Below are positions 3,406-28,288 of a DNA stretch of 64,000 nt, one piece after another. Origin of the DNA: a virus; the IMG/VR virus record IMGVR_UViG_3300047558_000238, positions 1 through 64,000 of that record; one strand, 5' to 3'. The position numbers and the translations under genes are program-made. Every line of letters begins with the position of its first letter. Position 1 is the stretch's first letter. Under the pieces are notes generated by a model. The model was given only the letters and a program-made list of their open reading frames with translations. It had not been told where the DNA came from and made no database searches.

Positions 3406-4011
3406 ATGTTTTCACAAGAGATACGTGAGGCTACAAAGGCAGAGCACAAGTCTGCTGAAGAAAGCCCATTCATGCAGTCCCTGCTATTCGGTAAAGTTCC
3501 ACGCGATGCATACTTCGACTACATTGCTCAGCTTGCTCCGATTTACGAAGCTCTCGAGAAGTGGGAAGGCAGCATGCCGTTCTTTGACCGTCGCCTTGAC
3601 CGATTTGAGCGCATCATTGCTGATCTTGAGTACATTGGCACTCGCGTTGTGCTCAACTCAACCATCTCCTACGTCAAGCATCTGACCGAGCTAATTAAGA
3701 CCAAGGACGAGGTACGCATTCTTGCGCATCACTACGTCCGCTATCTCGGAGACCTTTCAGGCGGTCAGGCAATAGGAACGCTCGTTGCACGTAATCTCTC
3801 GATTCCGCCAAACTTCCTATCCTTCTACGACTTCGATGATATTGGCGACCGCGTCCGCTACAAAGAAACCTACCGCGAAAACTTAAACACATATATTGAC
3901 CCGAAGGACTATGACAAGTTCATTACCGAGGCTAAGCTTGCATTTAAGTACACAGAGCAGATCTTCTCAGAGCTTGCTGACAAGTGGATTCAGAAGGACG
4001 AAGTAGAGTAA
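3406..4011 (+). CDS. Heme oxygenase (biliverdin-producing)
   Basis: The 201-residue length and sequence fit the HO-1/HmuO family, which opens heme to biliverdin, CO and ferrous iron using reductant and oxygen. The proximal iron ligand is H14 in ATKAEHKSAE, and the distal helix signature is LGDLSGGQA (residues 114-122), with the flexible GDLSGG glycines present. Helical content is continuous and there is no truncation. It lies alone between a terminator and the large terminase, four bases before the latter, at the head of the virion operon. Cyanophages use such enzymes for bilin pigments; here, with a Dps-like gene nearby, release of iron from host heme is a likelier purpose. That purpose is inference. 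Confidence 0.9.
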   Translation: MFSQEIREATKAEHKSAEESPFMQSLLFGKVPRDAYFDYIAQLAPIYEALEKWEGSMPFFDRRLDRFERIIADLEYIGTRVVLNSTISYVKHLTELIKTKDEVRILAHHYVRYLGDLSGGQAIGTLVARNLSIPPNFLSFYDFDDIGDRVRYKETYRENLNTYIDPKDYDKFITEAKLAFKYTEQIFSELADKWIQKDEVE

Positions 4012-4014
4012 CTA

Positions 4015-5415
4015 ATGGGCAAAAGTATTATGGAGCTGATTGCGATGCTCCCCGAAGAGGAGCGAGCGCAAGCTCTAGCCGACCTAGACCCCGAAGCATT
4101 GATGTGGGACTGGTCTGTTTGGGGACGCCCAGAGCAGCAAGCTCCTGAAGGCGACTGGAACATTTGGCTTGTACTTGCAGGACGTGGTTTCGGTAAGACT
4201 CGTCTAGCGTCCGAGTGGGTTCGCGAACAGGCTAAGTACACCAATACGGGCCAACGCCGTTTTGCACTTGTTGCTCGTACCGCAGCTGACGTACGTGACG
4301 TTATCGTTGAAGGTGAATCGGGCATTATGAATGTCACGCCACCTTCCGAGAAGCCACTCTACGAACCTTCGAAGCGTCGCCTAACTTGGCCTAACGGAAA
4401 TACAGCAACGCTATTCACCGCTGATGAGCCTGACTCGCTTCGTGGTCCTCAGTTCACTCATGCCTGGGGTGATGAGATCGCAGCTTGGCGTCAGACTCCA
4501 GATGCTGCAGGTATGACCGCGTTTGACAACTTGCGCGTTGGTACTCGTCTTGGTGATAAGCCAAAGATTCTTGTCACCACTACCCCGAAGCGTACGCCAC
4601 TGCTCTACAAGCTCATTGAAGAGGCAAATACTGGCCGCGTTGTGATTACCCGTGGTTCTACGATGGATAACGCAGGTAACTTGTCTGGCGCATATATGGA
4701 CACCATGCTTGGTGTTTACGAGGGAACCTCTCTTGCCCGCCAGGAGCTTTATGGTGAAATGCTTGAAGCCATGGAAGGCGCAATGTGGACAGAGGAGATG
4801 ATTGAAGCTGGCCGTGAAGCCATCTACCCACTCAGCACGCCTCTGCGCATCATTGGTGTTGACCCTAGCGTTGCAGAAAACCCTCGTGATGAGTGTGGAA
4901 TCGTAGTTGTATCGGCTACAGCAGAGTCTGACCTGTATAAGCGTCATGCTTGGGTGCTTGAAGACGCTTCAGTACTCGGTTCACCGACAGTTTGGGCTCA
5001 AAGAGTAGTTGATATGGCCCGTAAGTGGGGTTGCCCAGTTGTTGCTGAGGTAAACCAGGGTGGTGCGATGGTTAGAAACGCAATTAATACCATCGACCCA
5101 ACAATTAAAGTGCTTGAAGTCCACTCAAAGCAAGGAAAAGCCCTCCGAGCAGAGCCAATTTCGCTTGCATACGAGCAACAGCGCGTTCACCACGTTGGAT
5201 ATCTCGCAGATCTAGAGTCTCAGATGATTTCTTGGGTTCCAGGAGAGGGACGTTCACCAGACCGCATCGATGCACTAGTTCACGCACTCACTGCACTGCT
5301 CATTAAGCCACCAGCTGGCTTCTCTGGCGGAAAATTACGTGCAAAAAGCTTCGCTGACCGTAAAATTGGCATCCCAAACGGTAATCGTGGCGGAAAAATC
5401 TTCAGAATCAGGTAA
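4015..5415 (+). CDS. terL: Terminase large subunit
   Basis: The 466-residue packaging motor has an N-terminal ATPase and a C-terminal RNase H-like nuclease. Walker A is LAGRGFGKT (residues 54-62); Walker B with the catalytic glutamate is HAWGDE (149-154). ITRGSTMDN and LVTTTPK fit the coupling motif region. The nuclease begins at IIGVDPS with D283, and DRIDALVHAL near 425 supplies late acidic residues. It starts four bases after heme oxygenase and two bases before the next gene, so it is in one transcript. The small subunit is not obvious; tandem-HTH proteins are candidates. Confidence 0.93.
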   Translation: MGKSIMELIAMLPEEERAQALADLDPEALMWDWSVWGRPEQQAPEGDWNIWLVLAGRGFGKTRLASEWVREQAKYTNTGQRRFALVARTAADVRDVIVEGESGIMNVTPPSEKPLYEPSKRRLTWPNGNTATLFTADEPDSLRGPQFTHAWGDEIAAWRQTPDAAGMTAFDNLRVGTRLGDKPKILVTTTPKRTPLLYKLIEEANTGRVVITRGSTMDNAGNLSGAYMDTMLGVYEGTSLARQELYGEMLEAMEGAMWTEEMIEAGREAIYPLSTPLRIIGVDPSVAENPRDECGIVVVSATAESDLYKRHAWVLEDASVLGSPTVWAQRVVDMARKWGCPVVAEVNQGGAMVRNAINTIDPTIKVLEVHSKQGKALRAEPISLAYEQQRVHHVGYLADLESQMISWVPGEGRSPDRIDALVHALTALLIKPPAGFSGGKLRAKSFADRKIGIPNGNRGGKIFRIR

Positions 5416-5417
5416 AT

Positions 5418-5780
5418 ATGACGAAAATTATTCTAGACAGGTTCCCTTGCCACCTTGCTGCAGCTCCAGCAGGACTTTTAGAGGATGTCAGCGAGCTCAG
5501 AAGCTTCGAACCAACCCCTGGTTCGTCTTATTTAGAGATTACTCGCGTAATTTTGACAGACACTAAGGTAATTATTGCCAAAGACAGTACCGAGGGACCT
5601 CAGATTGTGTTTCAAGAGGACTATAACGAGGCAATTCTTGCTGATAAGCCTACTGACGACTCAAGAATTATCACAGCTAGCGGAAAAATGTTAGCATTCA
5701 AGAAAGATACCGGCTGCGGCTGCGGTTCACGCCTTCGAGGGTGGAATCCGTACAAGACTTTAGCCGCGATGGGAGACTAA
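5418..5780 (+). CDS. Conserved-looking hypothetical protein with a GCGCG motif
   Basis: This 120-residue protein begins MTKIILDRFPCHLAAAPA and ends with a motif, TGCGCGSRLRGWNPY, near residues 97-111, containing two closely spaced cysteines that could bind a metal. The middle is beta-like and acidic. I recognise no function. It sits between terminase and a DUF1360-like gene, a slot held by small conserved proteins in several actinophages as far as I recall. Its TAA overlaps the ATG of a short frame at 5780. Confidence 0.6.
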   Translation: MTKIILDRFPCHLAAAPAGLLEDVSELRSFEPTPGSSYLEITRVILTDTKVIIAKDSTEGPQIVFQEDYNEAILADKPTDDSRIITASGKMLAFKKDTGCGCGSRLRGWNPYKTLAAMGD

Positions 5781-6072: not shown

Positions 6073-7812
6073 TTGGGAATTTTCAAACGCGAAGATAAGA
6101 AGTCGACCGGAGCTGCAAGCTCTGGCGTTCGCGCATCTGCACCTAAGAATGCAACACGAGTGGCTCCTGGAGTCTCTGTTGACTCATTTGGAATCGTATA
6201 CGCCGAACCAGCAGCGTTCAACGCGCCTCGCCCACTGACAGCTGCTGCTGCTCAGATTAGACTTGACGACAAAGGTGAAGCAGAGCAGTTTAAGTCACGC
6301 CGTCAGTCGGCTGCCACTGCCTGGCAGTCAGAAGCATGGGAGTACTACGATGCAATTGGTGAAATTAAATACGCTTTTAACCTTGTGGCGTCTGTCGTTT
6401 CGCGTATCCGTCTTTACGCAGCTGTTGTAGATAACCCAGCAGAAACTCCTGCACCTATTCGCTTAAGCGAGGCCATTGACGAGAACCTAGCTGCAGCTGC
6501 AGAGCGTGCACTTAGCCGTCTTGACAGCGCATACGGAGGCCAGGCTGGTCTTCTCAAGGATGCAGCCCTAAACCTTCAGGTTACCGGCGAGTGCTACCTT
6601 GTTCAGGTTCCAGAGCGTATCGGATCGGGCCTCCCCGAGTCATGGGACATCCGCTCTGTAGATGAGCTTCAGGTTGACGCTAAGGGCAGCTACATCATCA
6701 ATCCTCGTCGCGATGTCGGCGGTAGCAGCTCAATGATGGGCACCGGAACTAACCGAGATGCCATCCGTCTGCCAAATGGCTCATTTGTTGGTCGTGTATG
6801 GAGAAGCCACCCACGCTACTCAATGGAGTCTGACAGCTCGCTACGCGGCCTTCTAGACCTTTGTGCAGAACTACTGCTCCTGAACCGTACTTTCCGCGCT
6901 ACGGCCCGTTCTCGCCTCAATGCGGGTGCACTCTACCTACCTGATGGTCTCTCAGTAGCGGCGTCTCCAGACCCAGACTATCCATACGATTCAGAAGACG
7001 GTCTTGGTTCAGGTTTCACTGCTGAAGAAGCAGAAGATGAATTTGAAGAGCAACTTATCGATGCGATGACAACTCCGATTCGCGATGAAGAATCTGCGAG
7101 CGCGGTTGTTCCTCTTATCATTCGTGGTCCTGCAGAACTTGGTGACCGCATCAAGCAGTTCAAGTTCGAGCGTTCATTCGACCCAGCTCGTGCTCAGCGT
7201 GCAGACCGCGTACTAGAGCGCATCATGCAGGGCCTAGACGTCCCTAAGGACGTTGTGACGGGCCTAGCGAACGTTAAGTATTCTAACGCTCTTCAGATCG
7301 ATGAGGCCCTCTACAAGGCTCACATCGAGCCTCTGATGCTTCTTATCGTTGACGCACTGACAGTCATGTACTTGCGTCCATACCTGATTTCGATTGGCTA
7401 CCCAGAGTCTGAAGTTAGAAAAGTTCAGATTTGGTATGACCCATCTCAGGTTGCTACTCGCAATGACCGTGCTGCAGATGCTGACTCTGGCTTTGACAAG
7501 ATGGCAGTCAGCTTCGAAGCATGGAGACGTGCTCACGGATTCTCGGATGCAGATGCTCCGACTCCAAACGAAGTTGCAACTCGCCTACTGATGTCTCGAG
7601 CTATGTTCACTCCAGAGTTAACTCAGGCACTACTTGGAACGATCGCGCCTGACATCATGAAGAGCGCTCGCTCTGCATCTCAGGAAGCTTCTGGTGCAGA
7701 GATTCCACCAGAGGTAGATAAGATTCTCCAGGAGGCTACTGGTGTAGCTGCTCCTGGCGGTACCGAAGCCGTAGAGACTCCACCACCACCACTAGCTGAA
7801 CCAGAGGCATAA
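6073..7812 (+). CDS. Portal protein
   Basis: The 579-residue length, position just after terminase and typical content (EYYDAIGEIKYAFNLVASVV, then a basic central region and IMQGLDVPKDVVTG followed by KYSNALQIDEALYKAHIEPL) fit a siphovirus portal, the dodecameric ring through which DNA enters the head. The start is TTG 6073, preceded by AGGGAG. The N-terminal 60 residues are Ser/Ala-rich and disordered; the C-terminus is Pro/Glu-rich. The next gene starts two bases after the stop. Confidence 0.85.
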   Translation: MGIFKREDKKSTGAASSGVRASAPKNATRVAPGVSVDSFGIVYAEPAAFNAPRPLTAAAAQIRLDDKGEAEQFKSRRQSAATAWQSEAWEYYDAIGEIKYAFNLVASVVSRIRLYAAVVDNPAETPAPIRLSEAIDENLAAAAERALSRLDSAYGGQAGLLKDAALNLQVTGECYLVQVPERIGSGLPESWDIRSVDELQVDAKGSYIINPRRDVGGSSSMMGTGTNRDAIRLPNGSFVGRVWRSHPRYSMESDSSLRGLLDLCAELLLLNRTFRATARSRLNAGALYLPDGLSVAASPDPDYPYDSEDGLGSGFTAEEAEDEFEEQLIDAMTTPIRDEESASAVVPLIIRGPAELGDRIKQFKFERSFDPARAQRADRVLERIMQGLDVPKDVVTGLANVKYSNALQIDEALYKAHIEPLMLLIVDALTVMYLRPYLISIGYPESEVRKVQIWYDPSQVATRNDRAADADSGFDKMAVSFEAWRRAHGFSDADAPTPNEVATRLLMSRAMFTPELTQALLGTIAPDIMKSARSASQEASGAEIPPEVDKILQEATGVAAPGGTEAVETPPPPLAEPEA

Positions 7813-7814
7813 TT

Positions 7815-8270
7815 ATGGATGAAAAAAATACACCGCTAGCTAAGGCTCTAGCAATCACTCTTAGTGACCTAGTTACCTTCAGCTTCATCGCTCAGGGGTA
7901 CCACTGGAACGTTATTGGCTCTGACTTCAAGGAGTACCACGGTCTTTTTGGTGACCTATACGGTGATGTCTCTGGCTCAATTGACCCAATTGCAGAGAAC
8001 ATCCTTAAGCTTGGCTTCGAGGCACCATACCTACTAGCAGACTTCCAGTCAATGACTCGTATCAACGAAGAGCGTGTTGTTGGTGGCGAGCCAGTCCAGA
8101 TGGTCGAGTCACTAGTACGAATCAACGAAGGCTTGATTGAAGAGCTTAAGGCCCTATTCCGCCTAGCTAATGAGCTAGACGAGCAGGGCATTGCAAACTA
8201 CACTGCTGACCGCATTGACGCCCACCAGAAGTGGCAGTGGCAGCTCAAGGCAACTCTAGGTATTCGCTAA
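7815..8270 (+). CDS. Dps-like ferritin-family protein
   Basis: The 151 residues follow the Dps pattern: a helix leading to GYHWNVIG (H30), then FKEYHGLFGDLY (H42) 12 residues later, and DPIAEN giving D57 and E61. These correspond to the inter-subunit ferroxidase ligands; the position of E. coli D67 is G46, with D47 beside it. The C-terminal helix DRIDAHQKWQWQLKATL also fits. Dps proteins oxidise ferrous iron, store it and often protect DNA. Lying between portal and head proteins, it may be packaged in the virion or shield DNA in the cell. It pairs logically with the upstream heme oxygenase. Oligomerisation and iron binding are inferred. Confidence 0.8.
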   Translation: MDEKNTPLAKALAITLSDLVTFSFIAQGYHWNVIGSDFKEYHGLFGDLYGDVSGSIDPIAENILKLGFEAPYLLADFQSMTRINEERVVGGEPVQMVESLVRINEGLIEELKALFRLANELDEQGIANYTADRIDAHQKWQWQLKATLGIR

Positions 8271-8289: not shown

Positions 8290-8790
8290 ATGAAAGCTTG
8301 GGAATACTACATCACCCGAGATGATCTAGTTAGCCTACACGAGGAGCTAACTTCAGAAGTCTCTGAGTCTCGTAGGATCTCTTTGGAGTCACTCGAGGAA
8401 GTTGCTCTACGTGCATCTGCTGCGTATGAGCACCTCGACTCAGCTGAAGAAGTACAGAATGCAATCCTCTGGGATGCAACTAACCTAGCTGAATACTCGG
8501 CACTAGGAGCATCAGAGATGGCCGAGGATTTGCTAAGCAGATACTCAGACCTTTTGCCTGCTGGACACCCAAACCATGAGTCGCATTCTCTAGAGGAGCG
8601 GGCTAGATGGACAGCAGGTGCTCCAGAGCTAGATGAGCTAAGCAGAGAGGCCATCCTGGCTGCGATGCTACCAACTGAAGATAAAATTCAGGAACTGCAC
8701 GCCACTGCTAGAGTCCGTGCAATGATTGCTTCTGGGAAGTTGTCTTCCGAGACTGCACGCTTGATCTATTTAGCAACAGAGTCAGAATAA
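8290..8790 (+). CDS. Hypothetical helical acidic protein
   Basis: A 166-residue, Glu/Ala/Ser-rich, apparently all-helical protein (WEYYITRDDLVSLHEELTSE at the start). I recognise no domain. It starts 20 bases after the Dps-like gene, with AAGGTAAAAGAACA just upstream serving as ribosome site. Its place among head genes suggests a minor virion or assembly role, unproven. Confidence 0.6.
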   Translation: MKAWEYYITRDDLVSLHEELTSEVSESRRISLESLEEVALRASAAYEHLDSAEEVQNAILWDATNLAEYSALGASEMAEDLLSRYSDLLPAGHPNHESHSLEERARWTAGAPELDELSREAILAAMLPTEDKIQELHATARVRAMIASGKLSSETARLIYLATESE

Positions 8791-8893: not shown

Positions 8894-11728
8894 ATGTCTG
8901 ACATCCTTCTTGCCCTTCTAGCTGCCGACGGTAACTCAGCCGCGGCTCGTAGAGCCCGCGTAGCGCTTCAGCCTCGAGACAAGTACGGCCGCTGGGTCAC
9001 TACTGGAGCTCGACTATTCGCTAGCCTAGACCTTGGCAATGGTGCCTTTGGTAAGGTAAAGGGCCGCGCTATTGGTGGTACTAATAAAAAGGGCGAAATC
9101 CGTATGCTCGTGGGCAAGGGCTACGAGAAGTTCGGCATCCCTGAGAACACTGTACTGACAGTTAAGTCAACTAACGGTGAGCTATTTGCTGCAACTCTTG
9201 ATGCAGACTTCCTAAAGAAGAAGGGTATCGACCCTAACCTAAAGCACGCGCTACCTAAGGCTCTAGAGAACCAGCCTCAGACTCTGGCTTCGATGGACCC
9301 TCAGCCAGCTGACGCGCTTGACATTGATCTTGCTACAAACGGTCTTAGCGACGCTGAAGACAAGGAGCTCCGTAAGGAGCGTGACCAGGAGCCTCTAGCT
9401 AAGCTCCCGCCTGCAATGGAAGTTGCAGAAGGTCAGCAGGTTAAGGACATCGTTGAGTCTGCAGAAGCTGGCACACCAACTCCTGAAGCAACTCCTGAGG
9501 CTGAGACTCCTGTAGAAAAAGCAACTCTAGCTCCTGCCAGTTCTGCAGATGACGCTATTGCAAATGCACTTGCCAAGGTAGCTCTAGGTTACGATGCTCC
9601 AAACCTTGACACTCTGATTCAGGCAGCTCAGACTCCTGGAGCTAAGCCTAAGCTAATCAACACATCAATCAAGGACATTAAGGCTGGAGATATTATTCAG
9701 CTAACCCCTGTTAAGGGCGCTCCACCGGTTGACTATCGAGTTGTAAGCAATGCTCCTAGAACTACGCTAAATGGCGATACTGTATACGACCTTAAGATTG
9801 ATGACAATGGTCGAGTAGCTACTGTAATGAAGAACGGTATTGGTCCTCAATACTCGATTGGTCGCTACGATATTCCAGCCAAGCCAGCCGCTGCTCCTGC
9901 AGCAACTGCGCCTGCTAAGTCAGCCAAGCCAGCCAAGCCAGCCAAGCCAGCCAAGCCAGCCAAGCCAGCTGCTAATGCCCCTGCAGCTCCAGCTGCTCCA
10001 GCGGCTCCTGCAGCTGACGGCTCAGCTGCACTCACTCCTAAGAAGAAGGTGACTACTGGAACAAAGAAGCCTAAGAATCAGGCAATCCAGGCAGCACTTG
10101 CTAAGGGCCGCAAGGACGATGGTAAGGACATTACTCCAGACCCACTAAAGGGTCTAGATGACTACCGCAATAAGATAATCACTCCACTCTTTGATGAGAA
10201 TGGAAAGCCACTTCTTACTGGTAAGAAGGATGACAAGGGCAACCCGATTGCAGTTGAAGATCCAGACGCAATTGTCAATGCCCTTCTTGAAGAGAACCCT
10301 CAGGCAAAGGTTGACAAGGATGGCGCAATCATCCTTGAGCGTGGAGACTACACAGACGCTGATGGCACTGCCTTCAAGTATGAGGTAGCTGTCCAGAAGA
10401 CCCACGACAACAAGTTCATGGAGCGATACAGCTTCATCAATGCTGCAACTGGTGATCGCCAGGACTTCTACCACTACGACTACAAGGATAGCTTCAAGGG
10501 TATCTACGGAGAAAAGAACGGTGTAATGGTCTTTAGAGACCAGCTACTTGGTAAGTCGACTCCTGGAAACCCTAACAGCCCTGAAATCCAGAAGTGGTTT
10601 GGAAAGTACACCTCGCTAGAGCGTCGTATTCGCTACTTCCGTAACAAGTCAGGTGTTGGCAAGCAGATCGATGACCAGACTCTTGCTGAAGCAAAGAACA
10701 TGAAGCTCCTCACTCCTGATGAGGTAATCCGTAAGTACCTACACGGTAGACCTAGAACCCTTAACCGCAACGGTACTGTTGACCAGAAGTTCCTACAAAG
10801 CTTCTGGGAAATCCTAGATCAGGATGCATCAGCAACTAACCCTCAGGCTCTTGAGGCAATGGTACAGCTACTAGGTAGACTACCTGACAATGACAACTCA
10901 AGAGGTCTACTGATCTCTAACCTGAGAAAGACTATTGCTACCCGCTATGCAGGTAAGCCTGGTGCTCAGAAGCTAGCAACATTTGCTAAGAACATCGAAG
11001 TTCAGATCATGAATGGTGACTTCGACCTTCGCGACATCCAGCGCCGCCCATGGGCATCGCGTGATGGTAGAACAATCATCGAGCGTGGCGACAAGGTTCG
11101 CTACTATAACAACGAAGGTGAGACTTCTGTCGGTACAGTTCTTGGCTTGAACCCTTCAGTAGCAGGGTATGACGACACTGTTCGTATTCGCTTTGCTAAC
11201 GGAGTTGTATCTAACATTCTTGCAGCTAAGTACTTGGACCGTTTGACTGGCACTGATGAGGAAGATACTCCAGCATCTAAGTACATACCATCACTGAGAG
11301 GCGATGCTATGCGTGCTGCCCGTGGTGTTGTAGTCACACCAGGAGCACCTGCAGGTAAGGCTAAGTCTGAGAGAAATAGCAGCAACCCTAGCGTTGACTT
11401 TGGAGATAAGTCGAGACAGCAGGATGACGGCACTGATGGTCAGTCTTCTGACGTAGCAGATCCATACCTAGGAAACTCCGGTGCACCTGCTGATCAGGCT
11501 CCTGCCGCAGATGCCACTCCAGCAGCTCCAGTCGGAAACGTAGTACTGCTAGACACTGGAGACGCCTTCTATGGTCCTGATGGTAGCTACCTAGGTACAG
11601 TTGTAGAGACCATTGAAGTTGAAGCTAAGGATGGCGGAGAGCCTGGACTAGCTGTCTACTACATGGATGAAAATGGCGACGAGCACTACGACGTTCTAGA
11701 GAAGAGCGAGAACCGCGGCCCAAAATAA
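8894..11728 (+). CDS. Large virion protein, N-terminal part of a frameshifted polyprotein
   Basis: The 944-residue frame opens with a helical segment and the motif QPRDKYGRWV near residues 26-35, shared with the proteins at 15663 and 17788 and typical of actinophage head-maturation proteins. A low-complexity linker of Lys-Pro-Ala repeats (about 335-380) follows. Later come a charged alpha/beta region, and an SH3/KOW-like stretch (GDKVRYYNNEGETSVGTV, about 735-790). The last codons CCA AAA TAA lie in a canonical slippery heptamer with a downstream stem-loop, so a fraction of ribosomes should continue in the -1 frame to give about 1946 residues. The ribosome site is GAGGATC. Function unknown; packaged minor head protein is likely. 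Confidence 0.7.
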   Translation: MSDILLALLAADGNSAAARRARVALQPRDKYGRWVTTGARLFASLDLGNGAFGKVKGRAIGGTNKKGEIRMLVGKGYEKFGIPENTVLTVKSTNGELFAATLDADFLKKKGIDPNLKHALPKALENQPQTLASMDPQPADALDIDLATNGLSDAEDKELRKERDQEPLAKLPPAMEVAEGQQVKDIVESAEAGTPTPEATPEAETPVEKATLAPASSADDAIANALAKVALGYDAPNLDTLIQAAQTPGAKPKLINTSIKDIKAGDIIQLTPVKGAPPVDYRVVSNAPRTTLNGDTVYDLKIDDNGRVATVMKNGIGPQYSIGRYDIPAKPAAAPAATAPAKSAKPAKPAKPAKPAKPAANAPAAPAAPAAPAADGSAALTPKKKVTTGTKKPKNQAIQAALAKGRKDDGKDITPDPLKGLDDYRNKIITPLFDENGKPLLTGKKDDKGNPIAVEDPDAIVNALLEENPQAKVDKDGAIILERGDYTDADGTAFKYEVAVQKTHDNKFMERYSFINAATGDRQDFYHYDYKDSFKGIYGEKNGVMVFRDQLLGKSTPGNPNSPEIQKWFGKYTSLERRIRYFRNKSGVGKQIDDQTLAEAKNMKLLTPDEVIRKYLHGRPRTLNRNGTVDQKFLQSFWEILDQDASATNPQALEAMVQLLGRLPDNDNSRGLLISNLRKTIATRYAGKPGAQKLATFAKNIEVQIMNGDFDLRDIQRRPWASRDGRTIIERGDKVRYYNNEGETSVGTVLGLNPSVAGYDDTVRIRFANGVVSNILAAKYLDRLTGTDEEDTPASKYIPSLRGDAMRAARGVVVTPGAPAGKAKSERNSSNPSVDFGDKSRQQDDGTDGQSSDVADPYLGNSGAPADQAPAADATPAAPVGNVVLLDTGDAFYGPDGSYLGTVVETIEVEAKDGGEPGLAVYYMDENGDEHYDVLEKSENRGPK
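9921..9968 (+). repeat. Five-fold 9-bp tandem repeat coding for Lys-Pro-Ala
   Basis: CAGCCAAGC is repeated about five times without interruption and codes for the AKP linker of the large virion protein. Identical codons suggest recent expansion by slippage. Confidence 0.85.
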
Positions 11729-11776
11729 ATAGGGCTGCGGTACCGTCGACTCCAAACGACGGAACTTCAGCCCAGG
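11719..11776 (+). promoter_or_regulatory. Programmed -1 ribosomal frameshift signal
   Basis: The heptamer CCCAAAA (11719-11725) lies in the required phase C-CCA-AAA, immediately before the TAA at 11726. After a six-base spacer, GGGCTG (11732-11737) pairs perfectly with CAGCCC (11768-11773 region), and inside it CCGTCG pairs perfectly with CGACGG around an eight-base loop. This is the classic pattern of slippery site, spacer and stimulatory stem. The -1 frame is open from here to 14733. Confidence is high for the pattern, lower for efficiency. Confidence 0.85.
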
Positions 11777-14733
11777 CTCCTGCGGCAACTGTTAAGAGCA
11801 CTAGCGGTCGTGAGTTTGATACTAGTGCACTACGCGCACCTAGAAAAGTAGGTCCAGGTAGACCACCAAAGGTCATTAACCCACCTGATATGAAGCCACT
11901 TGAAGACCTCAAGAAGGCTATCTATGACAGCATTCCTGGAAACCATGACTCAGACAAGTTGAATAATCTTATCGATGCAGCAAAGGCTGCTCGAGAGGGT
12001 AACGATGAGCCAGCATATGTTAAGGCACTATTAGACCTAACTACCTTCCACAAGGATAGTTTTGCCGATGACGAGACGTACACTCCTCTCTCAGTTAAGG
12101 GCGACTCTTTCCTAGAGAAGAAGAGCGTGGCAATCATCACCGCCAGAACTCAGAAGTACGCTAGATCAGGTAACAAGCCTCAGACTGTAGCGGACGTACT
12201 AAAAGAGTCAGAGCGTTCACTGCGTAACAGACTGCCAAATATTTCGGCACTATTCGCAACCCATACTGGATGGGATGTCATCGGTCCTAGCCGTGAATCG
12301 CAGCGCCTCCAGGCCGAGTTCTCTGAGATCTACAAGAAGCTAGGAGCTTCAGACTCAGAGGCGTCATACAAGGCAATGACTAGCACCACTAAGGAGCTAA
12401 ACCGTCGCCGTGATGATGTTAACGCTGCAGTAATCACCGTTAAGAATGCTGGATCGAACAACGAAATCTATGTCCACATGGATGCAGACTCGTACGACCC
12501 AACTGACCCTAATGCTGGCTACATGCCTAAGGCTACTCAGGCTGACATCGACAATACAATCGACGCCATGAGAACTGCCACTAAGGGTGGTCTGTTCAAG
12601 GACCGCGTAGTAGTTCACTTATTGCCAGAAGCCTACAAAGTACCTAATTCAGACGGCTCTAGTGAGAAGAATACAGCAGCTTTTACCTATGACGGCTCTG
12701 ATCACATCTTTGCATTCGTAGATCGAATTAACGCACTTCCTGGCTCTACAGCAGCTCCAGCTGATTGGTGGTCAACAGATATTGTTGACTCTAAGACAGC
12801 ATATGGTCACATCATTTCGCACGAAGTTGGTCACCTACTAAAGAACAAGCTATATGGTGCCAAGAGCGGTAAGTCAGAGACTGACTTCAATACTGATGTT
12901 GAAAACTTCTCTGCTGGAAAGTACACTCCTGTAGCTACCCCTGAAGCTGCAACCTCTAAGAGCTCAATAAACATTGACCCTGTAGCTGATCTAGGTATCG
13001 ATACTGACGGCATTGTAAAATCTAAGACCACTGCTGGCTCGGACCTATCAGGCCAGACATTGACTAGACAGCTGGGCTCTAACCCAGGCGGGTTTACAAC
13101 TGACCCTACTACTGGCGAGACAGTCTACGTTAAGGTGCAAAAGAGCGAGCTACATGCTCAGAATGAGACTCTAGCTGCAGCATTCTATGCTAAAGCTGGT
13201 CTGATGTCTGCCGATACTCGACTAGGCACTAAAGATGGTCAGGTAATTACTTACGCACCGAATATCCCTAACGCTCAGACTGGTATCGACTATAGCGATA
13301 AGGGCTTCATCGAGAAGCTACAGAAGGGCTATGCAATGGACGCTCTTCTAGCTAACTGGGATAGCATGGCAAACGATGCCAATATCATGCGCGACATGAG
13401 CGGTAATCCTATCTGGATTGACCCAGGCGGCTCGCTACTGTTCAGAGCTCAGGGTGCTCGTAAGACCAACTTTGGTGATACTGTATCTGAACTTGACAGC
13501 CTAATCACTTCTACTTCTACTGGAACTAGAGTGTATGGTTCGATGACACCTCAGCAGAAGACTGACAGTGCAAAGCTAGTACAGCAGATTACTCATGCTG
13601 ATATCGACATTCTAGTTAATGGAATCATTACAGATCCAGTTGAAGCCAAGCGCCTGAGAGATACTCTCAAGAACCGTCGAGACTATATCCTTAAGCGTTT
13701 CAACCTAGAACTAGATCTAGATAAGGCGAGAGCAGATGCTCATGCTAGAAGTAACCAAGCTACTCCGACGAAGACTTCCACTAAGCTAGGAACCCCTAGC
13801 GGCAAGCCAGAACCAGTGAGCGGCCGTGGCACTGAAGACTTTGACGAGAACTTCGCCGAGCTGTATGCAAGATTTGTTCAAACTGATGATGAAGTTCCTC
13901 AGTGGTTTGTTGATCTTCTTGCAAGCCACGGCATCTCGAAGAGAACTGCTAGTAAGCTGTGGAGAGCTAACCACTCTGCAGAGGTACAGCACCTTCATGA
14001 TCAAATTGACAAGATGCTAGACCCTACCTTCCTCGGTGAGTTTAGCCAGCTTCGCGCTCAGAACCCTGGCATGCGTCAAAGTATTTATGGTCAAATGATT
14101 GCAAAGCTAAATGGCACCGATGGCGAAAAGCCAGAAGTAGTCAAGACACTAGACTCTAAGAAAGCTACAGTCTATCGTGGAGTTCACTCGGATAGTCATA
14201 GAAGAGGTAGCGCTGCTGCTAAGGCAGAGGTTGCTAAATTTAGAGATGAGTTTATAAATGGACTCATAGCTTATATGTCTAATACGACTGTGTACGGTAG
14301 CGGAACCTACTCCTCTACAAATAAGTCAACATCTCTGAGCTACTCCAATGGCGAGTCAGATCATGACCACCTATGGCAGATGAACATTAAGCCAGGTGCA
14401 AAGCTAGTAACATATGGTGGCCAGAGCAATATCGATCCAACGTTCCCGGACTTTACAGGAACCATCGATACCCTCAAGCGCAGCATGAAGTCGACACTCG
14501 CAGAGCGCGTTCAAAACGAGATGTTCCCCGACCTTGACACTACTGACCCTCAGGTAGTAGCCGAGGTGGACCGTCTTATGAAGGAGCTTCCACTAAGTGT
14601 TGGTGACTCTACCTCTAATATTGCTGGACTATTGGGCTATGATGGGGTAGAGTTGGTCATGGGCCGAGAAAGCTATGTGATTTACTTCAACCGAGGTATC
14701 TTCCAGATCCTTGACCCAGGGACAACCCCGTAG
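11725..14733 (+). CDS. Frameshift extension: zincin, kinase-like and ADP-ribosyltransferase-like domains
   Basis: In the -1 frame, 1002 residues follow the slip site. The first in-frame ATG (11890) has no ribosome site, so independent translation is unlikely. Visible regions: a zinc-protease motif ISHEVGHLL (HExxH at 12821) and a later DFDENFAELYARF (13841) that could give the third ligand; between them a kinase-like domain with glycine loop QLGSNPGGF, lysine in VYVKV, ANWDSMANDANIM and IDPGGSLLFRAQG; and a C-terminal ADP-ribosyltransferase-like region with VYRGV, a GSGTYSSTNKSTS motif and GYDGVELVMGRESY. Such enzyme-laden head proteins are known to enter the cell with DNA in other phages. 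Catalysis is inferred from motifs only. Confidence 0.7.
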   Translation: MNRAAVPSTPNDGTSAQAPAATVKSTSGREFDTSALRAPRKVGPGRPPKVINPPDMKPLEDLKKAIYDSIPGNHDSDKLNNLIDAAKAAREGNDEPAYVKALLDLTTFHKDSFADDETYTPLSVKGDSFLEKKSVAIITARTQKYARSGNKPQTVADVLKESERSLRNRLPNISALFATHTGWDVIGPSRESQRLQAEFSEIYKKLGASDSEASYKAMTSTTKELNRRRDDVNAAVITVKNAGSNNEIYVHMDADSYDPTDPNAGYMPKATQADIDNTIDAMRTATKGGLFKDRVVVHLLPEAYKVPNSDGSSEKNTAAFTYDGSDHIFAFVDRINALPGSTAAPADWWSTDIVDSKTAYGHIISHEVGHLLKNKLYGAKSGKSETDFNTDVENFSAGKYTPVATPEAATSKSSINIDPVADLGIDTDGIVKSKTTAGSDLSGQTLTRQLGSNPGGFTTDPTTGETVYVKVQKSELHAQNETLAAAFYAKAGLMSADTRLGTKDGQVITYAPNIPNAQTGIDYSDKGFIEKLQKGYAMDALLANWDSMANDANIMRDMSGNPIWIDPGGSLLFRAQGARKTNFGDTVSELDSLITSTSTGTRVYGSMTPQQKTDSAKLVQQITHADIDILVNGIITDPVEAKRLRDTLKNRRDYILKRFNLELDLDKARADAHARSNQATPTKTSTKLGTPSGKPEPVSGRGTEDFDENFAELYARFVQTDDEVPQWFVDLLASHGISKRTASKLWRANHSAEVQHLHDQIDKMLDPTFLGEFSQLRAQNPGMRQSIYGQMIAKLNGTDGEKPEVVKTLDSKKATVYRGVHSDSHRRGSAAAKAEVAKFRDEFINGLIAYMSNTTVYGSGTYSSTNKSTSLSYSNGESDHDHLWQMNIKPGAKLVTYGGQSNIDPTFPDFTGTIDTLKRSMKSTLAERVQNEMFPDLDTTDPQVVAEVDRLMKELPLSVGDSTSNIAGLLGYDGVELVMGRESYVIYFNRGIFQILDPGTTP

Positions 14734-15662: not shown

Positions 15663-17795
15663 ATGAACTTCTTGGGCTCTTCCGAGAGATTTGCACTTTT
15701 TTCCCTCGATGGATACACGGTAGCTGTAGATATCGAGGCTAATGCAATTGCAGAGGTCACCAGCTCTGCAGTTTTAGCATCCCTAGAAGGATCCCTAAGC
15801 AAGGAAGAAGTTAGCGAAGCTGTCGCTAATACCGCTAGACAGGCACTAGAGTCCGTCATTGCCGCAGCGAATGAGACAGACCGCATGTACACTATCCCCG
15901 GTGGGGTTCAGGCAGAAGCTAAGAAAGCACTAGCTTGGCGCAAGGAACACCGTCGCGGTGGAACTCCTGTAGGCATTAATACTGCCCGCACTCTTGCAAA
16001 GGGTGGCCAGATTGGCATCAAGAAGATTCGCCACATTGCCAAGTATTTCCCTCGTCACGAGGTGGATAAGCAGGGCAAGGGCTGGAAGCCTGGAACATCT
16101 GCATTCCCGTCAAATGGCCGCATCGCCTGGGCACTTTGGGGTGGAGATGCCGCATGGCGCTGGGCAGAAGCTATCGTAGAGCGCGAGAATAAGAAGGTGC
16201 TCACTGCTAGTGGCTACGATACCGTCGAGCTAACATCCGTAGATAGCCCTTCATACTCATCTGAAGTTAGCCCTTTCAAGATTGCTCATGAACTAGACAT
16301 CAATGCTGGTCCAGAATTTATGGCTAGAGTCCGCATGGATGGTTCTGGGATCGATCGACTCTACAAGATTGATATCGATGGTCGTGTATTTGTCTGGGAC
16401 GACTGCGGCTGGGACACTCTAGGCCACGTTGATGGCGATGTTTATACCTACGATGCTGCACTAGATGATCCGTACGACATGGTCGAAAAAGATTATGTGA
16501 TTATTGATCCTAGTTCGGCAGTAATTATTTCTGCATTTATGCAGGAGCGCCCATTCCAGCCAGTATCTATCGATGAGATTGACCCAGAAGAGGCATCAAT
16601 CGTATACGACGGGCTAGCTGACGAGGACTTCACGCTAGTGGATCGAGTTCTTCTTGCTGCTGGCCCTGCAGGGTCTGCTTCAGATGCTCCAACCTCAGAT
16701 GGTCAGTACACTCCTGAAGAGCGAGCTAAGAATGTTAAGGCTCAGCCTAGAGATGCTCGCGGTCTATTTGTCAAGGTAGGTGCTAGAACTATAGTTGGCG
16801 GTGACCCAGTACGCGGTCAGGGAACTATCTCAGCTATCAATGAGGATAAAGGCACTGTATCAGTACGTCTAGACAATGGTAGAACTGTAGAAGTTGACCC
16901 TAAGCACACTAAGGCTCCAGGTCTAGGCCTTAAGAGCGGGCAGAACTTAGTGCCTAGCCAGGAAGACTATCCACTAGATATGTCTGGCATTATTGGTGAG
17001 CCTAGAACTCCACACAACCAGCCAAAGGCGCATCTGCCTGGCACCTTAAAGCCTCTAACCGACAAAGAGATCAACCTTATGGTCTCAAACTTCCCTAAGT
17101 ATGTCCAGCAGATGCGTGCATCATACAAGGCAAAGGATGCAGCAGACAAGGCTAGAGTCCAAAAGAAGTGGGGCAAGGATGTCGGAAGCGACTTCAGCAT
17201 CACTGCTGCTGCCACTGAAGAAGAGGCTCTAACCCCTAAGACTTCAGATGTCCCTGCGAAATACCTAGCAATCGTATCGCCAGACGATAAGTCAGCTGTA
17301 ATGGATGTTGTTGCAATTGTCCCTAAGACTGTGACTACCACTGAGCCAATGCTATATGAGCGCAAAGATGGCAAGTGGGTAGCCAACGAGCAGATTCTAG
17401 GTGACCTAAAGTCAGCAACCCCACCTCCAGTAGTTGAGCTGGACGAGAAGGAGGTACTAAATGATGTACTCCTTCAGGTGGACGATAAGGTAGGCGTAAC
17501 TGCTTCAGCTAACTTAGACTTCAGCCAGTTCTGGAGCACTGTAGTCGAGCCTCTTCTTTCAGCAGGCGGTCTAGATCACAACCGTGGCAACGCAGAAAAG
17601 CTTCGCCGCTACTGGGTCCACGGAGAAGGCGCTGCCAAGATTCGTTGGGGTCAGCCAGGTGACTGGAAGCGCTGCGTTAAGCATCTATATAAGTACATTG
17701 GTCCAAGAGCTAAGGGCTATTGCCAGCTTCGTCACAAGGAAGCTCTAGGCTACTACACCTCAACACACGCTAAAAAGGATCGCAATAATGGCTAA
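15663..17795 (+). CDS. Capsid maturation-associated protein
   Basis: A 710-residue multi-part protein. Residues about 76-178 form a conserved-looking unit (YTIPGGVQAEAKKALAWRKE, later KIRHIAKYFPRHEVD and WALWGGDAAWRWAEAI) found in structural proteins of several phages as I recall. A QPRDARGLFVK motif near 358 precedes an SH3-like stretch (GQGTISAINEDKGTVSV). The C-terminus (about 634-700) carries the module GGLDHNRGNAEKLRRYW to GYCQLRHKEALGYYT, repeated near the N-terminus of the next protein. The genes overlap by eight bases. It probably acts in head assembly; no catalytic residues are obvious. Confidence 0.6.
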   Translation: MNFLGSSERFALFSLDGYTVAVDIEANAIAEVTSSAVLASLEGSLSKEEVSEAVANTARQALESVIAAANETDRMYTIPGGVQAEAKKALAWRKEHRRGGTPVGINTARTLAKGGQIGIKKIRHIAKYFPRHEVDKQGKGWKPGTSAFPSNGRIAWALWGGDAAWRWAEAIVERENKKVLTASGYDTVELTSVDSPSYSSEVSPFKIAHELDINAGPEFMARVRMDGSGIDRLYKIDIDGRVFVWDDCGWDTLGHVDGDVYTYDAALDDPYDMVEKDYVIIDPSSAVIISAFMQERPFQPVSIDEIDPEEASIVYDGLADEDFTLVDRVLLAAGPAGSASDAPTSDGQYTPEERAKNVKAQPRDARGLFVKVGARTIVGGDPVRGQGTISAINEDKGTVSVRLDNGRTVEVDPKHTKAPGLGLKSGQNLVPSQEDYPLDMSGIIGEPRTPHNQPKAHLPGTLKPLTDKEINLMVSNFPKYVQQMRASYKAKDAADKARVQKKWGKDVGSDFSITAAATEEEALTPKTSDVPAKYLAIVSPDDKSAVMDVVAIVPKTVTTTEPMLYERKDGKWVANEQILGDLKSATPPPVVELDEKEVLNDVLLQVDDKVGVTASANLDFSQFWSTVVEPLLSAGGLDHNRGNAEKLRRYWVHGEGAAKIRWGQPGDWKRCVKHLYKYIGPRAKGYCQLRHKEALGYYTSTHAKKDRNNG

Positions 17796-20700
17796 TGAAG
17801 AGTTTATGATGGAAGAAGTTTGGGGCGAAAATATCGGTACACCTACAGAAGTCACCGATGAAGATATGCTTATGCCAATCGAGGACATTCTCGATGAGGT
17901 AGATGACTTATATGAGGACTCATGGGCTCCAGACGAGGAGACATGTAAGAATCTAGAAGATCTGGCAGAGTGCACTGATGAGGAGTTTGCACTACTTGCA
18001 GCCGGTGGCCTTGACCGCAACCGTGGCAATGCTGAGCAGCTCAGACAGTACTGGACCAGAGGAGAAGGCGCTCTTAAGATTCGTTGGGGAACTCCTGGCG
18101 ACTGGACCCGTTGCGTTCGTCAGCTTTCGAAGTACATGGGCCCTCGTGCAAAGGGATACTGCCAGCTTCGTCACAAGGAAGCTACCGGTCTTTACACTGG
18201 AAGCAAATTCAATCCTGGAAATAGAGACTCTCTAACTTCGTCACTGTTTGCGTCTGAAGACGAGATGGTGGATAAACTCATTACGAAGAGCGCCCTTACC
18301 GCTAGAGCTAACGATGCTAAGGCTAAGTTTGGTCTAGTTGCCGCTGCTCCACTGGCAGCTGAAGGCGCTAAGTTCCGTATTCCTCTCCTAATCCCGGAGC
18401 AGCTAGAGTCTGGCGATGGTCGTAGCTTTAAGAGAGATGCTATCTCTATTCGAGAGCTCCCTCTACCTCTACTATGGCAGATTAAAACTGGTGACGGTCA
18501 CGCTGGCTCAGTTGTAGTTGGTCGAATTGACTATGTAGAGCGTACTGAACAGGGCATCGGAAATGCTTATGGCGTATTTGATACTGGTGTATACGGGCAA
18601 GAAGCCGAGAGATTAGTGCGTAACGGATTCCTCCGTGGAGTTTCTGCTGACCTAGACCAGTTCCAGGCTACTGAAGAGAAGCAGCCAAAGAAGGCTGAAG
18701 CTTCAGATCTAGAAAATGCAGGCGAGATTGGCAAGGATAAGCTTGTAGTAAATAAGGCACGTGTAATGGCTGCTACAATTGTAGCTAAGCCTGCATTTCA
18801 AGAGTGCACTATTTCTATTGAAGAATCTGGGGACCAGGAGGAAACTATGACCCCTAACGACGGTATTTACGAGGAGTCAGTGGACTTCAGCACCGTCGAA
18901 CCGATTACTGCCTCTGGATTCCTTTCAGAAGAGATTCCGGTTACTCCTCCTCAGGAGTGGTTCGAAAACCCTAAGCTAACTAAAGCTACTCCACTTACTA
19001 TTGAGCCAGATGGTCGTATCTATGGCCACATTGCCGCATGGCACGTGAATCACATCGGCATGCCTCGCTCAACTCGTCCTCCACGCTCTAAGAGCAAGTA
19101 TGCTTACTTCCACACTGGCGTTGTTCGTACCGACTCTGGCAAGGACATCCCTGTTGGTCAGCTAACCCTAGCTGGTGGACACGCTGACTTACGTGCAAGT
19201 GCAGCCCAGGCTGCTAAGCACTACGATGACACCGCATCTGCTATTGCTGATGTTCACGCTGGTGAAGACGAGTATGGAATCTGGGTAGCAGGCTCACTAA
19301 GACCAACCGCTACCGAAATGCAGATTCGCGCTCTTCGTGCTTCCGCTCCTTCAGGTGACTGGCGTCCAATCAACGGCTCGCTTGAGCTGGTTGCAGTGTG
19401 CCAGGTAAATGTTCCAGGATTCCCGATTGCCCGTGCTCTTGTTGCTTCTGGCAAGGTTATGTCTCTGGTTGCAGCTGGAGCTAGCTTCCTAGCCATGATG
19501 AAGAGCGATGCTGTAACCCACTTTGCTGTTAAGGCTCAGGAGCTTGGCGAACTAGCTACATCTACTCCAGACTTGAAGGACCGCGTAAAGGCCAAGAAGG
19601 CTAACATGCGTAAGTTTGCTATCGAATCTGCAGCTACCAAGGTAGAAGACATGCGTCATCGTGCTCTTGTTGCATCTGCAGTTGCTGAGCTTGCAAAGTT
19701 CTCGGATGAAGAACGCGCTAAGCTCGCTGAGACTGGCGAAGCTCTTCCAGATGGCTCATACCCAATCCGCAACGAGCAGGATCTAAAGAATGCAATTCAC
19801 GCATACGGAAGATCTACTCCTAAGGACCGTGCAAAGGTTCGCACTCACATTCGTAAGCGTGCTAAGGCTTTGGGTCTTGCAGCACTTGTTCCTGAAGAGT
19901 GGAAGGCTGCAGCCTCTATCGAAGCTGCTACCTCTGTAGCTCAGATGCGTGCTTCTATTACTGCTGCGCTAATTGCTTCTGCATCAGCATCAGCAGAGCC
20001 TGCTGAAATGGTTCTCCTAGATACAGTGGAGCTATCAAGCGATGACTATTTGTCTACAATCATCGAGAACAACGCTCAGGACTCTGACCCAAAAGCATCT
20101 AGCTACCCAGCTGTAACTGCTGCACTACCTGCAGAAAGCGAGTTCGCTGAGGTAGCTAAAGATCAGATCTCTGATGTAGAGCTAGAGAAGCTTCGTAAGG
20201 CAAAAGAAGAAGCCGATAAGCAGACTGAAGATCAGATTAAACTAGCAGAAGACATTAAAGCTGGTAAAACTACAGTTCAAGACTTGTACGACGAAAAAGG
20301 TCGTCAGAAGTATGTATCTGGAGTGAACCAGCCTCGTGATGCTAAGGGTAAGTACCGTAAGGTTCTAGCCAGACTTAAGCAAGACCTAGGTGTTGCTGGT
20401 CTTCAGAAGGCTCTAAAGAAGGTAGAAGACGCTGAGAACATGGATTTTGCGGGTAACTATGCAGAATCTGCTAAGGCCAGCGAAGAACTTCTTGGAATGA
20501 TTGACCGTCTAGATGCTAAGGCACTTAACCCTAAGGCGCTAGAGAATGTTAAAGCTACTGCAGCTGAACTAGGCAAGGTAATCTCAAACCTACCTTTGCC
20601 TTTCGGTGAAGATGCAGAAAAAGTTAGATTTAGCGATCTACCAGCGGGACTCAAGGATCTCATCGACTCGATGATTACTAGAGTCGAAGCAAAGATCGGT

Positions 20701-20817
20701 AAAAAGGATGCAGATGTTGCCACTCAAAATCTGCGTTCATTTATGTCTGGAGCAGACGTTTATTCTCAGGGCGAAGTTCAATCTGAGATGAGCAAATTGC
20801 TCCGACTCCTTACCTAA
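17788..20817 (+). CDS. Capsid maturation protease with scaffold-like C-terminus
   Basis: A 1009-residue protein. After an acidic N-terminus comes the GGLDRNRGNAEQLRQYW module (73-138). About 190-300 is a prohead-protease-like domain (FRIPLLIPEQLESGDGRSF, DGHAGSVVVGRIDYVE, FLRGVSADLDQF), where the His and Ser are candidate catalytic residues. About 375-570 matches a known actinophage maturation-protease region (GRIYGHIAAWHVNHIGMPRS, VNVPGFPIARALV). A helical basic piece (STPKDRAKVRTHIRKRAK) and a QPRDAKGKYRKVLARLK motif lead to a helical, scaffold-like end. The assignment as protease is fair; the exact catalytic set is not certain. Confidence 0.75.
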   Translation: MANEEFMMEEVWGENIGTPTEVTDEDMLMPIEDILDEVDDLYEDSWAPDEETCKNLEDLAECTDEEFALLAAGGLDRNRGNAEQLRQYWTRGEGALKIRWGTPGDWTRCVRQLSKYMGPRAKGYCQLRHKEATGLYTGSKFNPGNRDSLTSSLFASEDEMVDKLITKSALTARANDAKAKFGLVAAAPLAAEGAKFRIPLLIPEQLESGDGRSFKRDAISIRELPLPLLWQIKTGDGHAGSVVVGRIDYVERTEQGIGNAYGVFDTGVYGQEAERLVRNGFLRGVSADLDQFQATEEKQPKKAEASDLENAGEIGKDKLVVNKARVMAATIVAKPAFQECTISIEESGDQEETMTPNDGIYEESVDFSTVEPITASGFLSEEIPVTPPQEWFENPKLTKATPLTIEPDGRIYGHIAAWHVNHIGMPRSTRPPRSKSKYAYFHTGVVRTDSGKDIPVGQLTLAGGHADLRASAAQAAKHYDDTASAIADVHAGEDEYGIWVAGSLRPTATEMQIRALRASAPSGDWRPINGSLELVAVCQVNVPGFPIARALVASGKVMSLVAAGASFLAMMKSDAVTHFAVKAQELGELATSTPDLKDRVKAKKANMRKFAIESAATKVEDMRHRALVASAVAELAKFSDEERAKLAETGEALPDGSYPIRNEQDLKNAIHAYGRSTPKDRAKVRTHIRKRAKALGLAALVPEEWKAAASIEAATSVAQMRASITAALIASASASAEPAEMVLLDTVELSSDDYLSTIIENNAQDSDPKASSYPAVTAALPAESEFAEVAKDQISDVELEKLRKAKEEADKQTEDQIKLAEDIKAGKTTVQDLYDEKGRQKYVSGVNQPRDAKGKYRKVLARLKQDLGVAGLQKALKKVEDAENMDFAGNYAESAKASEELLGMIDRLDAKALNPKALENVKATAAELGKVISNLPLPFGEDAEKVRFSDLPAGLKDLIDSMITRVEAKIGKKDADVATQNLRSFMSGADVYSQGEVQSEMSKLLRLLT

Positions 20818-27593: not shown

Positions 27594-27929
27594 ATGACTA
27601 AATTCAGAGACTTTGGTTCAGGCCCAGACCTAACCAACGTAGAGCCAATCTCGTTCTCTATCCATGGCGAGACATTCGAATGTGTCAAGGCCGTTCAGGG
27701 TAAGGTACTCCTAGAGCTAGTAGCTAAGTCTAAGTCAGATGACCCTAGCGAAGCAGCTTCTACCATTGACAACTTCTTCTCTCAGGTTCTGACCGATGAG
27801 AGTTACGCAAGATTTGATGCACTACTACTAGACAAGAACCGCGTTGTTACTGTAGAAAGCCTTGGTGAGATTTCTGGCTGGCTAGTAGAGCAGTTCAGTG
27901 ACCGCCCGGAAGAGCAGCCAGAGGCTTAG
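27594..27929 (+). CDS. Tail assembly chaperone, upstream part
   Basis: A 111-residue acidic, helical protein (TKFRDFGSGPDLTNVEPISF, LLELVAKSKSDDPSEAASTI, LGEISGWLVEQFSDRPEE) just before the tape measure gene, the standard place for the G/GT chaperone pair. The following frame is open in the -1 phase from 27902 and a stem-loop lies at 27917-27953, so a minor extended product is expected. Confidence 0.7.
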   Translation: MTKFRDFGSGPDLTNVEPISFSIHGETFECVKAVQGKVLLELVAKSKSDDPSEAASTIDNFFSQVLTDESYARFDALLLDKNRVVTVESLGEISGWLVEQFSDRPEEQPEA

Positions 27930-28288
27930 CTGAGTGGGCTATTGACCTCTGGCCATATGTAAACGGAAAAGCTTTGACATCTGGAATCAACCTAAAAGAA
28001 GCGACAATGTCGGACATGCTTGACATTGTCCACTTCTTTTTTGAGGAAGATTCTAGGTATGGCTCTCAAGAAGAAGTCGAGTCTGTCAGTGCTGTTCGTA
28101 GCCAGATATACGAGACTTTGTATGGAGTTCCATATGCATACAAAGTTAAGTCTGGCGGCAAGACTAGATCTACTACCACTAGTGACATCCCAGATGTAGA
28201 TGAAGTTAAGCCGTATATACCTCCAACGGAGTTTGATCCAGGATCATCAAACCCTTTTGGAGCCGTCCTCGAAGCACCGCTTCGATAA
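27902..28288 (+). CDS. Tail assembly chaperone, frameshifted downstream part
   Basis: In the -1 frame after the first chaperone the sequence reads AEWAIDLWPYVNGKALTSGI and continues to VHFFFEEDSRYGSQEEVESV. The only internal start with some ribosome-site support is TTG 27974 (after GGAAAAG), so the product is made either as a G-T fusion, the norm in long-tailed phages, or alone from that TTG. It ends 17 bases before the tape measure gene. Confidence 0.6.
   Translation, partial: PPGRAARGLAEWAIDLWPYVNGKALTSGINLKEATMSDMLDIVHFFFEEDSRYGSQEEVESVSAVRSQIYETLYGVPYAYKVKSGGKTRSTTTSDIPDVDEVKPYIPPTEFDPGSSNPFGAVLEAPLR
27905..27953 (+). promoter_or_regulatory. Possible -1 frameshift region of the tail chaperones
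   Basis: The shift must occur between 27902 (after a TGA in the -1 frame) and the TAG at 27927. CCCGGAA at 27905-27911 is in the right phase but is not a canonical slippery heptamer. Five bases later GCCAGAGG (27917-27924) pairs perfectly with CCTCTGGC (27946-27953). Confidence 0.45.

Follow-up and report, generated by a model that had tools for sequence, protein, structure and literature searches.

The 64,000-nucleotide stretch of viral DNA analyzed here (the window) comprises positions 1 to 64,000 of the IMG/VR record IMGVR_UViG_3300047558_000238, a virus record of 107,309 bases. Flanked by the portal gene on one side and by the capsid-protease and major-capsid genes on the other are two very large open reading frames (ORFs) in different frames of the + strand, the strand of all features of this locus given below. 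ORF1 (8894–11728) encodes a 944-residue head-region protein, the carrier, with a conserved N-terminus that bears a QPRDKYGRW motif, and with several small beta-barrel-like segments. The −1 frame, which holds ORF2, is open from 11671 to its stop at 14733, and both frames are open over 11671–11728. The 3′ end of ORF1 reads GGC CCA AAA TAA. Within the overlap, and in phase with ORF1, it contains the slippery heptamer C CCA AAA (11719–11725), which lies just past the last beta-barrel-like segment (at about residues 890–936). The 0-frame stop TAA (11726–11728) abuts the heptamer and is also the first half of a six-nucleotide spacer, TAAATA. Beyond it, a putative stimulatory hairpin of three nested helices occupies 11732–11773: an outer stem GGGCTG/CAGCCC (11732–11737/11768–11773), an inner stem CCGTCG/CGACGG (11743–11748/11757–11762) and, between the two, a middle helix of three base pairs (11739–11741/11764–11766). 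The −1 frame extension (11719–14733) measures 1004 codons from the heptamer and 1002 past the ORF1 stop, and the predicted fusion is of 944 + 1002 = 1946 residues with the junction ...RGPK-INRAAV. We consider it very probable that programmed −1 ribosomal frameshifting operates here, so that the locus would yield mostly the 944-residue protein and, from a fraction of the ribosomes, the 1946-residue enzyme-bearing fusion.

The 47-nucleotide hairpin piece has a minimum free energy of −25.9 kcal/mol (z = −6.4). None of 200 shuffled sequences folded as well, and among random 55-mers from the same genes one in 400 matched the window hairpin. The features of a programmed −1 site are found together: an in-phase X XXY YYZ heptamer in an ORF overlap, a stable structure downstream (6 nucleotides away, within the expected 5–9), and conservation in diverged relatives. 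An earlier reading of the window (the original prediction) had described the heptamer, the TAA, the six-base spacer and the nested stem correctly to the base, and its −1 frame of 1002 open codons and product of 1946 residues are confirmed as well. A G+C-rich hairpin right after a stop codon could also be an attenuator or a terminator that ends transcription after ORF1. No run of T follows the hairpin, however (CAGCCCAGGCTCC), and termination would leave the in-phase heptamer and the conserved coding within the hairpin unexplained, which makes this explanation extremely improbable. RNA polymerase slippage on the A run, giving messages of mixed frame with no ribosomal shift, would suit the large minority of signals in the family that use AAAAAAA. 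The window and many other members have only four A residues (CCCAAAA), a run shorter than those known to promote polymerase slippage, and the codon phase and the hairpin a few nucleotides downstream are features of a ribosomal shift; we regard polymerase slippage as very unlikely.

Past the heptamer, the first ATG, GTG or TTG of the −1 frame is the ATG at 11890 (codon 57). No Shine-Dalgarno-like sequence was found upstream of it, in agreement with the earlier claim that the first ATG has no ribosome site. This ATG exists and its distance from the ORF1 stop (about 160 nucleotides) would in principle permit an independent start, such that ORF2 might be a gene of its own, or one reached by re-initiation after the ORF1 stop, with no recoding role for the heptamer and the hairpin. 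Beyond the missing Shine-Dalgarno sequence, what argues against this is the coding that precedes any start codon: the −1 peptide of 11719–11889 (PKINRA...FDTSALR) is conserved in relatives. Across the two junctions described below, the first −1 frame start codon lies 10–132 codons past the shift site, and a Shine-Dalgarno-like sequence accompanies 1 of 22 first in-frame starts (both junctions pooled). In several relatives the first start is 105–132 codons in, within conserved sequence, and re-initiation there would remove conserved residues. An independent ORF2 also leaves unexplained the heptamer and hairpin that are found in 28 of 28 contigs with this frame break, and we judge it to be quite unlikely.

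The family was gathered from IMG/VR by a scan with a portal alignment, a scan for the exact signal, and scans with alignments of the ORF1 and ORF2 families. Scans of IMG/VR with ORF1 or ORF2 as single proteins found next to nothing, and it was the portal alignment that revealed the family; tblastn of ORF1 against cultured phages gave no match. Homologues of ORF1 are present in at least 35 viral contigs. At a single position of the protein, which follows directly on a small beta-barrel-like segment and RGPK or its equivalent, two states occur, and no third state was seen at this junction among family members. In state A (28 contigs including the window, with about 20 distinct signals) the 0 frame stops at the junction. 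In all 28, an in-phase CCCAAAA or AAAAAAA stands zero or one codon ahead of the stop, a hairpin follows closely, and there is a −1 ORF (262–1002 codons where complete); the break falls at the same residue in sequences down to about 30% identity. The original prediction had looked to related phages for conservation of the heptamer and the stem; both recur in 27 other contigs, with heptamers and paired hairpins that differ. To estimate the background, ORFs of 150 codons or more were taken from the window and the fetched loci, and their 947 distinct ends were scored for a heptamer no further than two codons from the stop. Such a heptamer is borne by 25 of the 947 ends, 23 of these being at the two junctions described here, and the rate elsewhere is 2 of about 924 (about 0.2%). 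Further candidate sites were dropped as background: GGGAAAT in contig L135, where the second ORF starts at an overlapping ATG, and AAAAAAG in L056/58/60, where the structure is weak.

Conservation of the hairpins was judged by folding each independently, and four types were discerned. Type 1 reads CCCAAAA TAR ATA GGGCTG...CAGCCC with variable inner stems (the window, L161, L162, L116, L121, L089–L092 and, in shorter form, L113), and its heptamer is invariant. Type 2 consists of AAAAAAA Gnn TAG and then CCCCT...AGGGG-like stems (L097, L109, L110, L098, L126, L020), type 3 of AAAAAAA TAG and a long CCAGCCCY...RGGGCTGG stem (L101, L103), and type 4 of CCCAAAA GCC TAA with GCCTTC...GAAGGAGGC (L026). 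The outer stems are invariant; the inner stems vary between relatives in sequence, length and register, with pairing kept in each. Most hairpins of the four types fold far better than their shuffles (mostly z −2 to −6), the weak ones being those of L098 (z −0.5) and L099 (z −1.5).

In state B (seven contigs) the frame runs on through the junction for about 360 further residues, into the metallopeptidase-like segment that state A encodes in the −1 frame. Five representatives of the seven were placed in the tree, where they group as a single clade (100/100 support). The state B contigs inspected at the DNA level have no heptamer, and their RGPK is encoded by CGT GGA CCT AAG and similar non-slippery codons. 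The closest named phage (portal 73%) is Actinomycetia phage DSL-LC01, which comes from a lake metagenome. It has a single ORF of 3289 residues, of which residues 186–287 match the start of ORF1 and 1676–1893 the kinase domain of ORF2. Intact frames free of the signal, named in the original prediction as evidence against a shift, do therefore exist (the seven contigs and DSL-LC01). They support the colinearity of the fusion and do not refute the shift, because the same RGPK is encoded and is followed by the same kind of metallopeptidase domain. Single ORFs in some relatives would also fit a frame break that is a sequencing or assembly error, or the decay of an ancestral ORF that was undivided, like the one in DSL-LC01. 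An apparent true assembly frame error does lie nearby in L017, where the gene has an extra break (5607–5649) compared to the intact gene of the near-identical L018, probably from assembly or sequencing. In the window, however, both ORFs are intact over about 900–1000 codons, and neither error nor decay accounts for a break that recurs at one residue in 28 contigs and always with a slippery site and a hairpin. As a general explanation this is already refuted, and it retains next to no probability.

A second junction is located further upstream in L036/L035 and L057, where CCCAAAA stands 0–1 codon before a TAG and is accompanied by a hairpin (at 13206 in L036 and 13891 in L057); the QRRDRYGKFAEMGG domain is on one side of it and an N-terminal domain on the other. 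In L036 and L057 alike, the two ORFs are contiguous within the giant ORF of DSL-LC01. The ORF pair of L057 is colinear with the single ORF of DSL-LC01, because its 0-frame protein matches residues 11–172 and its −1 protein residues 172–335 of the latter. Where these contigs have the second junction the window has a separate gene for a 166-residue protein (8290–8790), upstream of ORF1, whose position corresponds, by gene order only, to residues 1–172 of the giant protein of DSL-LC01. Recoding thus appears to serve at two different module boundaries within a single giant-protein architecture.

Motif conservation in the −1 part was read from an alignment of nine homologues. The zincin-like metallopeptidase motif HEVGH (12820–12834; residues 368–372 of the −1 product) has H368, E369 and H372 invariant in the nine, and a putative third zinc-ligand region, ENFAEL (13846–13863), belongs to an ENFAE/ESFAE block in the homologues with invariant E710, F712, A713 and E714. 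A CtkA/HipA-like kinase domain (13069–13707; residues 451–663) is inserted in the metallopeptidase. A Foldseek search of the PDB with its AlphaFold model matched Helicobacter CtkA (3akl, E = 3.8e-4, prob 1.00) and, more weakly, HipA. This kinase is present between the zincin blocks in the window, L161 and L162 and is absent from six homologues; its tblastn matches were to Gordonia phages, DSL-LC01 and others. The kinase module also recurs (41%) upstream of the portal in L013 (7221–7892) and L015 (4436–5107), contigs in which the −1 module has no kinase, so that this effector domain is housed by different genes. The C-terminal portion is a putative PARP-like ADP-ribosyltransferase (ART) domain (14131–14730) with conserved R820 and G860-x-G862-x-Y864. 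The Pfam match to PARP in homologue L087 (E = 3.4e-4) is below the gathering cut-off, and a Pfam match to ATLF (0.0066) is also below cut-off. The fold matches in BFVD included phage proteins named ADP-ribosyltransferase (E 1e-5 to 5e-5), those named PolyVal reaching only about 7e-3, and a sequence search of the PDB with the ORF2 profile yielded no usable match.

The one carrier family is followed by five or more different module architectures. Relatives have the peptidase alone (L113, L026), the peptidase with a GNAT-like domain (L020, L098, L126, and also L110), the peptidase with an ART whose R, S and E motifs were read by eye (L101, L103), or the GNAT-like domain alone (L097, L109). The −1 module of L099 (9408–10331) begins with a DEDD exonuclease (RNase_T, 5.6e-13), an unusual candidate cargo. 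The carriers of L109 and L110 are nearly identical, yet L110 has a whole peptidase module that L109 lacks. The discordance of the carrier and module trees is only suggestive of module exchange, because it rests on the placement of one long branch (L113).

The carrier itself has no match in Pfam or PHROG, the MuF domain included, and a fold search with ORF1 returned nothing beyond short matches to Tudor/SH3-like barrels (E above 0.1), which were not used for function. Only gene order supports its location in the head. Three head-region proteins of the window have a single copy each of the motif QPRDxxG[RLK][WFY], at 8969 in ORF1, at 16743 in the gene at 15663–17795 and at 20329 in the gene at 17788–20817, and similar motifs are found in DSL-LC01 and other relatives. 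This QPRDxxGR[WFY]-like motif hints at a common signal, possibly one of capsid targeting, processing or maturation. The genes are ordered as terminase (4015–5415), portal (6073–7812; phrog_776, E 9e-103), Dps/ferritin-like protein (7815–8270; 4e-14), the 166-residue protein, ORF1/ORF2, two large proteins, of which the second matches the head protease (phrog_859/18402), and the major head protein (phrog_777). The Dps/ferritin-like gene and a heme oxygenase gene (3406–4011; Pfam, 1e-37) sit among these packaging and head genes. A WhiB gene (47159–47650; E 2e-17) and portal relatives nearly all of which are in actinophages point to an actinobacterial host. Scanning bacterial and archaeal genomes with the portal gave no relatives and therefore no prophage or host evidence. 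Apart from the ORF1/ORF2 locus, a presumed tail chaperone pair of small ORFs (27594–28288) precedes a 957-residue ORF at 28306; its second ORF lies in a −1 frame that stays open over the stop codon at 27929. Inspection by eye showed no XXXYYYZ heptamer there, and any shift site would be non-canonical. A 1443-residue protein with long collagen-like GPTGATG repeats (58292–62623, − strand) is probably a tail fibre.

In the mechanism that we propose, most ribosomes would end ORF1 at the TAA at 11726 and release the 944-residue protein. Ribosomes would be delayed both by the hairpin and by the stop codon that adjoins the slippery pair, and a fraction of them would re-pair from CCA AAA to CCC AAA by tandem slippage of the Pro and Lys tRNAs and then read the −1 frame. 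Slippage of the P-site Lys tRNA with the stop codon in the A site is an alternative route, which would give the same PK-INRA junction. The output would be a mixture of the carrier and of the carrier extended by the metallopeptidase with its inserted CtkA/HipA-like kinase and the ADP-ribosyltransferase. The 944-residue part may be built into the head with the fusion riding along as a minority species, and the enzymes may be injected together with the DNA and then act on the host, by analogy with T4 Alt and the polyvalent proteins. Frameshifting probably serves to load a minority of a head-associated carrier with effector enzymes.

The comparison shows, at the level of sequence, the signal, its conservation, the colinearity with in-frame relatives and the modular variation of the −1 part. 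Several points weigh against our interpretation. All close relatives are metagenome contigs, the carrier has no recognized fold or virion annotation and its structure model is of low confidence, and the zincin and the ART are assigned from motifs and from weak profile matches. Injection is drawn from analogy, and frameshifting is read from nucleotide and protein comparisons. On balance, we lean towards a broader proposal for this family of actinobacterial tailed phages, in which recoding would routinely link a conserved, head-associated carrier to injected effectors that can be exchanged. A set minority of the carriers would bear an enzyme module (peptidase, kinase, ADP-ribosyltransferase, acetyltransferase or exonuclease), as a tailed-phage counterpart of Gag-Pol, and the arrangement would have arisen at two module boundaries of the same giant protein. 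If so, modules could be swapped while the carrier stays unchanged, and one frameshift would govern whether a giant head-region protein bears a second giant, enzyme-bearing half, the attachment varying by phage. This would be a direct and testable explanation of how phages control the amount of effector that they inject. It would also entail a family-wide correction of annotation, two "hypothetical" ORFs being one product, and would provide about 20 naturally diverged signals, of several types, on which −1 frameshifting in Actinobacteria could be studied.

The original prediction knew of no description of a frameshift in a giant head-region protein. This holds for the large exchangeable enzyme cargo but not for the shift itself, as −1 shifts are known in phage capsid and tail genes, among them those of T7/T3 gp10B, Lactobacillus phage A2 and the Listeria phages PSA/A118/A500 (PMC5009743), with capsid extensions in T3/T7 and A2. 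In those systems too, a shift near the end of a virion gene gives a minority, C-terminally extended head or tail protein. Their extensions are short, Ig-like or similar, and are attached to the major capsid or tail protein, whereas here 262–1002 codons of enzyme domains extend a giant head-region protein, with a module that changes between phages. The gpG/gpGT tail chaperones of lambda and actinophages (PMC5009743, PMC10885494) likewise have a canonical −1 signal, a minority fusion and a place in the late cluster of tailed phages. Unlike the proposed fusion, their products are outside the virion and have no enzyme domains, and their genes lie just before the tape measure gene instead of between the portal and the protease.

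In domain vocabulary, the −1 modules share that of the polyvalent proteins (Iyer, Burroughs, Aravind 2017, PMC5512222), large multi-domain phage proteins encoded near virion genes, with a metallopeptidase hub and ART, kinase and GNAT domains, which are thought to be injected. As with these proteins, several enzyme domains are encoded here near virion genes, yet they form a single polypeptide only if the frameshift occurs. Here a signal joins the carrier and the effector, each in a frame of its own, and the kinase was matched to CtkA/HipA and not assigned to the polyvalent kinase group; the word "frameshift" was not found in the main text of PMC5512222. The MuF polymorphic toxins (PMC5576092) and the MuF-VIP2 ART fusions of Microbacterium phages Percival and Goodman (PMC7302621) also join an N-terminal head protein to a variable C-terminal enzyme module, with ART cargo in actinophages. 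These fusions are in frame and contain a MuF domain, of which none was detected in ORF1. Unannotated frameshift predictions by PRFect include VIP2-ART and MuF-like genes, as a possibility only (PMC10885494). In the Gag-Pol of retroviruses and totiviruses (PMC5009743), a set fraction of a structural protein carries enzymes into the particle in a similar manner; the present case differs in being that of a DNA phage with unrelated proteins, in which packaging of the fusion is only inferred. A search of open literature text found no report of a conserved frameshift that joins a head-region carrier to exchangeable enzyme modules. The shifting of head proteins into the −1 frame is already known, and the novel part is the cargo, the large exchangeable enzyme modules.
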